This document shows positions 22,976 through 26,164 of a stretch of DNA of 32,807 nucleotides, in pieces. Position numbers and translations under genes: made by a program. The stretch is taken from contig WFUE01000106.1 of the NCBI GenBank assembly GCA_015485125.1, forward strand, positions 1-32,807, read 5' to 3'. Below the pieces are notes generated by a model. The model searched no databases. It had not been told where the DNA came from and saw nothing but the letters and a program-made list of their open reading frames with translations. Each line of letters begins with the position of its first letter. Positions within the stretch are counted from its first letter, which is position 1. This stretch comes from Lysobacterales bacterium. GTDB taxonomy: Bacteria > Pseudomonadota > Gammaproteobacteria > Xanthomonadales > S139-57.

Positions 22976-23005
22976 AAGGCTCTGGTTTCGGCCAGGGCCT
23001 TTTTT
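22976..23005 (+). terminator. Rho-independent terminator of the tRNA operon
   Basis: AAGGCTCTGG-tttcgg-CCAGGGCCTT followed by T-tract. Confidence 0.88.
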
Positions 23006-23072
23006 ATTGCTGCTGGCATGTCAACTTGCGTTGCTTTACCATGTAGGTAGTCTGCATGCTGGAGGTGTTCAC

Positions 23073-24041
23073 TTGCCACGCTGGAGTTTTGCGCCAGTTC
23101 TTGCATTGTGCCTTCTCGGGTTGGCGCCGACTACGCGGGCACGTGAGCCCATCGACCCCATTCCCCTCGAGATCGAGATTGACCTGGACAAGGCGCGTCT
23201 GGGCTATCAGCTCTATATCGACAAGCGGCTTTCCAGAGATCGCACGGTTTCCTGCGATACCTGCCACGGGTTGTACAACGGCGGGGTGGATCATCGCAAC
23301 GTATCCATCGGAGTTGGCGGGAAGGCAGGCAAGGTCAATGCGCCGACCACCTGGAATGCCGTATTCAATTTCCGCCAGTTCTGGAACGGCAGGGCCCGGG
23401 ATCTGCGTGAACAAGCCGCCGGGCCGGTTCACAATCCCATCGAAATGAACATGAGCGAAGCAGAAGTCGGGAACAGACTGTCGCAGTCGCCTGAATACCG
23501 CGCACAGTTCAGCAAGATCTATGACTCCACGCCCAATCTGGATGATGCCCTGGATGCCATCGCCGAGTTTGAAAAGGGTTTGATCACACCCAATGCCGCC
23601 TTTGATCAGTACCTCCGGGGAGAAAGAACCCTGCCCGCGAAAACCGTGCAGGGCTATCGCCTGTTCAAGACACTGGGATGCGTCACCTGCCACAATGGTA
23701 TCAATGTGGGTGGCAATTCATATCAGTATCTTGGCGTGGTCGTGCCCATCGAGAGCAAAAACCCCAGCCCGGCCGACCGGCATGCGCTGACAGGCGAGCT
23801 TTTTGACCGCAATCGTTACAAGGTGCCCACCTTGAGAAACATCGCGCGTACCGCCCCCTATTTTCATGATTCGTCTGCCAGAACGCTGGATGAGGCCATC
23901 CGGATCATGGCCTATCACAATCTGGGTTATCAAATCGAACAGGATGAAGTGGAAAAAATCCGCGCATTTCTGCTTAGCCTCAACGGAGAAACTCCCTGGA
24001 TCCTGAAACGCCTGTTTCCAGGCAAGGACATTGATCCGTGA
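23073..24041 (+). CDS. Di-heme cytochrome c peroxidase / MauG-like protein, exported
   Basis: Two CxxCH motifs, 'VSCDTCHGLYNGGVDHRNVSIGVGGKAGKVNAPTTWNAVFNFRQFWNGRARDLREQAAGP' and 'LGCVTCHNG'; 'KVPTLRNIARTAPYFHDSSARTLDEAI'. Proposed TTG start at 23073 after GGAGGTG; the ORF-track start 23007 lies just past the tRNA terminator. Confidence 0.9.
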   Translation: MPRWSFAPVLALCLLGLAPTTRAREPIDPIPLEIEIDLDKARLGYQLYIDKRLSRDRTVSCDTCHGLYNGGVDHRNVSIGVGGKAGKVNAPTTWNAVFNFRQFWNGRARDLREQAAGPVHNPIEMNMSEAEVGNRLSQSPEYRAQFSKIYDSTPNLDDALDAIAEFEKGLITPNAAFDQYLRGERTLPAKTVQGYRLFKTLGCVTCHNGINVGGNSYQYLGVVVPIESKNPSPADRHALTGELFDRNRYKVPTLRNIARTAPYFHDSSARTLDEAIRIMAYHNLGYQIEQDEVEKIRAFLLSLNGETPWILKRLFPGKDIDP

Positions 24042-26164
24042 ACAGAAAGCCCGTTCTACCCCTGATCCTACTTGGGGCACTGGTTTTGCTTTCGTTCATC
24101 TTGACCGACTGGCTCGTTCGTGAACAGGCGGACCGCGCAAACCGCTTACACAACATCTTTCAACAGGCCCGAATCCACTGGCTGAGATTGGAAAAGACAC
24201 TTCTGGCCGAAAATGCCACTCTGTACAGCAACTACGGCCAGAGTCAGCTATGGCTTGAACAATTACGCCAGGATCTGACGAAATTGCAAGCCGAACTGCA
24301 AGATCAAAGCTGGGCGAGCCAGGCTCTGGATCAACTGGTCGGCGATCTGGAAATCACAGAGGAACAGATCGATTATTTCCATACCCAGCTGGCCATCATC
24401 AAGAACTCCACCCAGCATTTGCCCCGACTGCTGTCGCGTTATGTTTCTCGCCATCCGCACGGCGGAGAAACCGATGTTTCACGGCATCAAACCGAGCGGC
24501 AATACCTGGCCATGCTCGCTCGCGCGGTCAGCGAAGTCGTGCTGGCCAAGACCAGTGGTGATCTGGATCTGGCCCCGTCCCTGAAACAAATCATTGACGA
24601 CATGCGCCAGCTATCTCCACCATCCGCCATGGATTTATCCTTTCATCAGATTTTCCTGCGCCACCTGGAAGTCATTTACCGAAATCTGCCCGGTTTTCTT
24701 TTGACGCAGGACAACCTGCAAAATCAGCCTTTCCTGGAGCATCTGGATACCCTGGATACACTCGCCGAGCAGGAGCAGCAAAGTCGACTGGCCTGGATCA
24801 CGGCCTTGCACGGGCTGCTGGCCGGCATCTTCTCGCTGTTGTTGATCTATGCCGGCTGGTTGCTGGTGCGCATGCAAAGAGAAAACTGGCGGCTGGAAGC
24901 GGCAAGGGAAGCGCTGGATATCGCCGTGGTTTCCGATACGCTGACTGGCCTGCCCAACCGACTGGCCTGGTCCCAGCAGACAGACGAGACACGAGCGGTA
25001 CTACTGCTGAATGTGGACCGCTTCAAGCACATCAATGATTTTTATGGCAATGCGGCGGGCGATCAAGTGCTCATTCAGCTGACACGCCTGCTGATAGGGC
25101 AACTGGACACCACGTTATCGTCGCGATTGTACCGAGTCGGTGGTGATGATTTTGCCCTGCGCTTGCCGAACAACCACCCAGAACCGGTCATGGAACTGGC
25201 CAAGCGCCTGCTCTTTGCCATCGAACATCACGTTTTCCTGTTTGAGGGCCGTCCCGTCCGCCTGTCAGCCAGCATTGGCATCAGTGAACACGAGCCCTTG
25301 CTGGAAACCGCCGATCTCGCCCTGAAATCAGTGAAGAAAAAACGCAGACGCATACAGGTCTACCAGCCGGACGAAGGCCTGGAGAAAGCCGTCGAGCACA
25401 ACCTGCACATGGTGGATGTCATTCTGAAGGCACTGGAGGACGATCGTATCGTTCCCTGGTTCCAGCCCCTGCTGAACAACCATACCGGGCGCGTGGACCG
25501 TTACGAATGCCTGATGCGTATCGAAATGCCCGATGGCAGCGTACTCACCCCCTGGCGGTTTCTACCGGTAGCGCAGGAAGCGCGGCTGCAGGGGGAAATG
25601 AGTCGCGCGCTGTTTCGCCAGGCGCTGCGCCACATGCAAAAGAGCTCGGCGGGCTTTTCACTCAACCTGTCCATGAGCGACATGGAGGATGAAGCCCTGG
25701 TCCAATTGTTTTCCGAAACCTTCTCGCAAAAGCCTGCGTTGGCCCGGCGCATCACCATCGAAATTCTGGAAACCGAGGATGTCCAGGACAACCAGAGTGT
25801 GGAGCACTTCCTGCAACACATGCGCGATCTGGGCTGTACCCTGGCCATCGATGATTTCGGTAGCGGCTACTCCAACCTCAGCCAGCTGCTCAGGCTGGGC
25901 GTGGACCAGCTGAAAATCGATGCCTCGCTCATTCGCAACCTGGACAGCAGCCCCCAATCGCAGGCCACGGTGCGCGCCATTCTCGAATTTGCCCGCGCGG
26001 CACAGGTCAAGGCCGTGGTTGCCGAGCATGTGTCCTCACACCAGATCCAGCGTATTGTGCAAGAGCTGGGCATCGATTACTCACAAGGTTTCTGGATTGG
26101 CAAGCCGGAGCCGGAACTGCTGCCGGAAGAGCTGCTGCAAGCGGAAAAACTGCCCTCCGACTAG
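24038..26164 (+). CDS. Membrane-anchored GGDEF-EAL protein with N-terminal helical periplasmic sensor region (DAHL-like?)
   Basis: TM at about aa 7-27, helical region, second TM 'LLAGIFSLLLIYAGWLLV'; 'DTLTGLPNRLAW...LNVDRFKHINDFYGNAAGDQVL...YRVGGDDFALRL'; EAL domain 'YECLMRIEM', 'ITIEILETEDVQD', 'LAIDDFGSGYSNLSQLLRLGVDQLKIDASLI', 'AEHV'. GTG start overlaps the preceding TGA. Confidence 0.92.
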   Translation: MNRKPVLPLILLGALVLLSFILTDWLVREQADRANRLHNIFQQARIHWLRLEKTLLAENATLYSNYGQSQLWLEQLRQDLTKLQAELQDQSWASQALDQLVGDLEITEEQIDYFHTQLAIIKNSTQHLPRLLSRYVSRHPHGGETDVSRHQTERQYLAMLARAVSEVVLAKTSGDLDLAPSLKQIIDDMRQLSPPSAMDLSFHQIFLRHLEVIYRNLPGFLLTQDNLQNQPFLEHLDTLDTLAEQEQQSRLAWITALHGLLAGIFSLLLIYAGWLLVRMQRENWRLEAAREALDIAVVSDTLTGLPNRLAWSQQTDETRAVLLLNVDRFKHINDFYGNAAGDQVLIQLTRLLIGQLDTTLSSRLYRVGGDDFALRLPNNHPEPVMELAKRLLFAIEHHVFLFEGRPVRLSASIGISEHEPLLETADLALKSVKKKRRRIQVYQPDEGLEKAVEHNLHMVDVILKALEDDRIVPWFQPLLNNHTGRVDRYECLMRIEMPDGSVLTPWRFLPVAQEARLQGEMSRALFRQALRHMQKSSAGFSLNLSMSDMEDEALVQLFSETFSQKPALARRITIEILETEDVQDNQSVEHFLQHMRDLGCTLAIDDFGSGYSNLSQLLRLGVDQLKIDASLIRNLDSSPQSQATVRAILEFARAAQVKAVVAEHVSSHQIQRIVQELGIDYSQGFWIGKPEPELLPEELLQAEKLPSD

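Follow-up and report, generated by a model that had tools for sequence, protein, structure and literature searches.

A di-heme cytochrome c peroxidase-like protein paired with DAHL-domain receptors as a candidate periplasmic sensing partner

The window—the whole stretch of 32,807 nucleotides analysed here, from a Lysobacterales bacterium—carries a pair of overlapping genes immediately 3' of a tRNA-Ala/tRNA-Glu unit and its terminator. The first gene encodes a cytochrome c peroxidase-like protein (hereafter CCP) and the second a membrane receptor. The following features were located in this segment:

22976-23001, + strand: terminator-like hairpin at the end of the upstream tRNA-Ala/tRNA-Glu unit
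23061-23066, + strand: Shine-Dalgarno sequence GGAGGT for the TTG start of the CCP gene
23073-24041, + strand: CCP gene; its product is a di-heme periplasmic protein of 322 aa that carries a signal peptide
23253-23267, + strand: first heme motif, CDTCH (residues 61-65)
23679-23693, + strand: second heme motif, CVTCH (residues 203-207)
24024-24028, + strand: AAGGA, likely ribosome site of the receptor, inside the CCP gene
24038-24041, + strand: GTGA start/stop overlap
24038-26164, + strand: membrane receptor DAHL-GGDEF-EAL, 708 aa
24185-24796, + strand: DAHL periplasmic sensor domain (residues 50-253)
24932-25348, + strand: GGDEF domain with a GGDDF motif and the metal Asp replaced by Asn325, probably no cyclase
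25424-26107, + strand: predicted EAL phosphodiesterase domain, catalytic residues conserved

The CCP gene starts with TTG at 23073, six bases from its Shine-Dalgarno sequence, and the AAGGA preceding the receptor gene lies nine bases from the GTG at 24038-24040, both sites having been assigned by eye. The TGA stop of the CCP gene (24039-24041) and this GTG overlap within GTGA, so that the two genes share four bases, as an earlier note on this DNA had read them. Its proposal of coupled expression gains support from an overlap of exactly four bases in 63 of 117 tabulated pairs of a CCP gene and its next gene, a set in which a few records are duplicated and one Pseudomonas entry is spurious. The genome contains exactly one further CCP_MauG gene, with no same-strand open reading frame of at least 120 residues starting within 400 bases downstream of it, and a single DAHL gene above the Pfam cutoff.

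The window CCP is a di-heme peroxidase-like protein with two CxxCH sites, scoring 182 bits against CCP_MauG (PF03150; cutoff 25.6) and also matching Cytochrom_C. With residue numbering mapped by motif from the Pseudomonas enzyme, the peroxidatic residues Q114, P118 and E124 and the E-heme ligand Met279 are all present, and Val81 occupies the distal His position. Because the set is intact and the distal His is replaced, the peroxidatic heme should be open, as judged from the sequence. A strong sequence match was found to the bacterial di-heme CCP 1iqc (E 2e-79), which has the same heme and peroxidatic residues; the window CCP differs in belonging to a separate subfamily tied to DAHL receptors, in nearly all members of which the distal His is replaced (one His among 114). 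MauG carries a Tyr at the E-heme ligand position. The description "MauG-like" had to be dropped, since the scores fall far below the cutoffs of MauG (TIGR03791; 117 bits against 443.85) and MbnH (TIGR04039; 133.8 against 362.85) and Met is kept at the E-heme.

In the receptor, Pfam placed DAHL at residues 50-253, GGDEF at 299-437 and EAL at 463-690. The DAHL assignment (PF19443, 53.1 bits against a cutoff of 38) bears out the periplasmic sensor of DAHL type that had been suspected, and AlphaFold2 modelled residues 1-286 as all-helical with a mean pLDDT of 91: stacked helical bundles lie between two long terminal helices that bear the hydrophobic, membrane-spanning segments. No sequence relative of this region was found in the PDB. 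The best fold match of the model was McpS (2yfa; TM 0.48-0.59), a receptor of the HBM type whose helical bundles are likewise stacked between two membrane helices, and TorS (3i9y, 3o1i; TM about 0.5) was also among the matches; all of these are weak (E > 0.001), and no sequence kinship was found between TorS and DAHL. Across 112 aligned downstream proteins, Asp67 is conserved in 96% and Asn118 in 79%—a conservation pattern rather than a curated requirement—and the window protein has Gly67 and Leu118 at these positions, a loss that may change what its DAHL domain responds to. The most conserved Asp and Asn are likewise missing from a relative in the same genus (L005).

The direction of the output can be narrowed further. 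The first metal-binding Asp of the GGDEF domain is Asn325 (25010-25012), as it is in 38 of 38 aligned relatives, so that the pair of metal-binding acidic residues of an active diguanylate cyclase is incomplete even as the GGDDF motif looks intact. In the EAL domain, the window protein has the full catalytic set of E, N, E, DD, K, E and Q, and so does every relative that is ungapped there. On these residues, the GGDEF domain is probably a regulatory, non-cyclase domain and the receptor output probably the breakdown of c-di-GMP by a predicted EAL phosphodiesterase. The earlier claim of a c-di-GMP output thus stands as regards the GGDEF-EAL architecture, and its neutrality as to direction does not.

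Conservation of the adjacency across genera had been set beforehand as the check on a functional link between the two proteins, and it was found on a scale well beyond what was first supposed. When 274 genomes of Gammaproteobacteria were searched starting from DAHL, 45 genes, in 37 genomes bearing 30 family codes, scored above the cutoff, and a CCP gene directly precedes 42 of them; the remaining three have no CxxCH protein upstream. In a sample covering Pseudomonadota as a whole, each of the 30 best DAHL loci has an adjoining CCP. Of the sub-cutoff DAHL matches, eight were retrieved together with their flanks; none of these had a neighbouring CCP, and sub-cutoff matches were treated as false. 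At the level of genomes, CCPs are present in 37 of 37 with DAHL and in 111 of 237 others (p of about 1e-11, for genomes that are not phylogenetically independent). Since 364 CCPs were counted in 148 genomes, pairing involves a minority of CCPs and nearly all of the DAHL genes found. When the search started from the CCP instead, its 80 closest relatives among GTDB genomes spanned Gammaproteobacteria, Campylobacterota, Aquificota, Desulfobacterota and Nitrospirota and included one member of the Gallionellaceae; in most of them a receptor-like gene lies directly downstream. A motif scan placed a signalling gene next downstream of none of 43 high-scoring unlinked canonical CCPs. A third conserved gene was ruled out in ten loci, where the upstream genes are unrelated housekeeping genes. 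Two of the unpaired DAHL genes (L157 and L158) each sit behind a gene whose start resembles that of a response regulator; their genomes carry a CCP-paired DAHL as well.

What varies behind the pair is the cytoplasmic part. Of 97 proteins scanned behind linked CCPs, 96 matched DAHL, and the outputs attached to it comprise GGDEF plus EAL, PAS plus GGDEF/EAL, histidine kinase (HisKA/HATPase), chemoreceptor (MCP), one class III adenylate/guanylate cyclase, and none. Work on the chemoreceptor Tlp10 reportedly noted already that DAHL receptors come with many outputs. In a FastTree phylogeny of the CCPs, which contains some long branches, a single branch with a support of 99 separates linked from unlinked sequences (one change, against a mean of 38 when labels were shuffled), the unlinked set being biased toward canonical CCPs because it was drawn from the highest scores. 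The linked CCPs therefore form a subfamily apart from the sampled canonical CCPs, and the window CCP, directly upstream of its DAHL gene, falls on the linked side. Within that subfamily the output has switched type at least 11 times: CCP and DAHL stay constant while output modules are swapped. Moreover, among 67 pairs bearing EAL, CCP distances show a partial r of 0.45 with DAHL and 0.24 with EAL, which gives modest support to the idea that CCP divergence follows the sensor more than the output.

Whether linked or not, all CCPs keep the heme Cys and His residues, the one exception being a linked row with a gap at one site. The peroxidatic Gln/Pro/Glu set is intact in 43 of 43 unlinked CCPs, 71 of 75 linked CCPs from the CCP-first search and 17 of 39 from the DAHL-first search, fractions that are not unbiased because the CCP-first and unlinked sets were picked by similarity to the canonical sequence. 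At least one of these residues is lost, with both heme sites kept, in 26 of 114 linked CCPs (CCPs of loci L118-L160). These 26 are candidate pseudo-peroxidases, and losing the peroxidatic residues while retaining the hemes is as expected for a sensor rather than an enzyme.

One studied system appears to be an example of this pair. In Campylobacter jejuni, the CCP gene docA immediately precedes docB (tlp10), according to a review (PMC3156733); Tlp10 has a DAHL domain as its sensor (PMC9796306), and both genes are described as required for chick colonisation (PMC3156733, PMC9796306). The Campylobacter locus of our set (L074), equated with docA-docB by its gene order and domains, has a CCP that groups with the linked sequences in the tree and, directly behind it, a DAHL chemoreceptor. 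As this is exactly the docA-docB arrangement, the window pair can be regarded as the c-di-GMP version of docA-docB, in that a CCP gene immediately precedes a DAHL receptor gene in both and GGDEF-EAL stands in place of the chemoreceptor output. In the literature that we searched, a link between Tlp10 or DAHL and a CCP was not found outside the docA-docB review, nor was the near-obligate pairing of DAHL with a distinct CCP subfamily.

A CCP-receptor pair fixed in many phyla, with an inner part that is freely swapped, suggests that the CCP is a dedicated sensing partner. Because the CCP and the sensor are fixed and co-translated and the output is free, the simplest reading makes the CCP the sensing subunit, and because the hemes are what is conserved, peroxide or another redox change is the likely signal. 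The whole explanation that we favour, and consider probable though far from assured, is a conserved module in which the CCP is dedicated to a DAHL receptor, serving as the sensory subunit on the periplasmic side and relaying its own heme state. Translational coupling would cause the CCP to be made in step with the receptor; peroxide or another redox input would be received at its hemes; and contact would transmit the changed heme state or shape to the DAHL domain with its two helical bundles, from which the membrane helices would carry it on to whichever output is attached—here, probably c-di-GMP breakdown by EAL, with GGDEF in a regulatory, non-cyclase role. The CCP would thus act as the periplasmic input partner of DAHL by analogy with TorT and TorS, the latter being a helical membrane sensor of related shape that is read through the separate periplasmic TorT; TorT is a periplasmic binding protein, whereas the partner in the window would be a di-heme peroxidase. 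The weak fold matches, the direct binding of malate by McpS and the absence of Asp67 and Asn118 from the window DAHL all count against this explanation.

The alternative that survives best, although we consider it unlikely, casts the CCP as an ordinary peroxidase engaged in detoxification and has DAHL bind a small metabolite alone, the two being co-expressed for the same habitat or physiological state. It would account for the full peroxidatic set of the window CCP, and the fold resemblance to McpS fits it, since McpS directly binds organic acids such as malate and its structure implies no partner gene. In addition, Tlp10 is reported to have several ligands, malate among them (PMC9796306), so DAHL may need no protein partner. 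However, independent detoxification leaves unexplained why the output is free to vary when the CCP is fixed, why the peroxidatic set is incomplete in 22 of the 39 CCPs from the DAHL-first search although both heme sites are kept, and why no sampled canonical CCP is paired. It also sits poorly with C. jejuni, whose CCPs, DocA included, give no protection against hydrogen peroxide according to the review (PMC3156733).

A second alternative, which we judge improbable, invokes chemistry within the same superfamily of di-heme enzymes: the CCP would oxidise a residue of DAHL, as MauG and MbnH do on partner proteins, and the modification would be a signal or a maturation step. MbnH acts on the product of a neighbouring gene, and DAHL positions 63 and 66 are often aromatic. 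Yet the alignment contains no universally conserved oxidisable Tyr or Trp in DAHL, the best Tyr columns reaching 62-64 percent and the most aromatic column being mostly Phe; moreover, the CCP falls far short of the MauG and MbnH cutoffs and keeps an E-heme Met where MauG has Tyr. Least probable of all is control in the opposite direction, in which DAHL would read a chemical or redox cue and the receptor would adjust the expression or activity of the neighbouring peroxidase: regulator and target are often neighbours and some of the outputs are histidine kinases, but many others are chemoreceptors or c-di-GMP enzymes, which seldom control one neighbouring gene, and the CCP is the first gene, co-translated with its supposed regulator.

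Should the CCP indeed be the sensing subunit, a heme-based periplasmic input could be plugged into any signalling output, and c-di-GMP enzymes, histidine kinases, nucleotide cyclases and chemoreceptors, C. jejuni Tlp10 included, would share a periplasmic redox input. A single explanation would then be offered both for why colonisation needs the docA peroxidase, which gives no peroxide protection, along with the adjoining chemoreceptor gene, and for what the widespread DAHL domain senses. Whether DAHL in general is the docking receptor of a dedicated di-heme peroxidase-like sensor—an ancient modular redox input extending to Tlp10—rather than a free-standing metabolite sensor is, in our estimation, evenly balanced.

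Several individual loci depart from the common layout. At L124 (2572-4704), the protein behind the CCP combines DAHL, GAF and an adenylate/guanylate cyclase domain and is possibly a redox-controlled cyclic nucleotide enzyme. At L146 (1504-2460), a DAHL membrane protein of 319 residues without any output domain still lies directly behind a CCP. Finally, a second GGDEF-EAL gene directly upstream at L033 and L044 places the CCP between two c-di-GMP genes.
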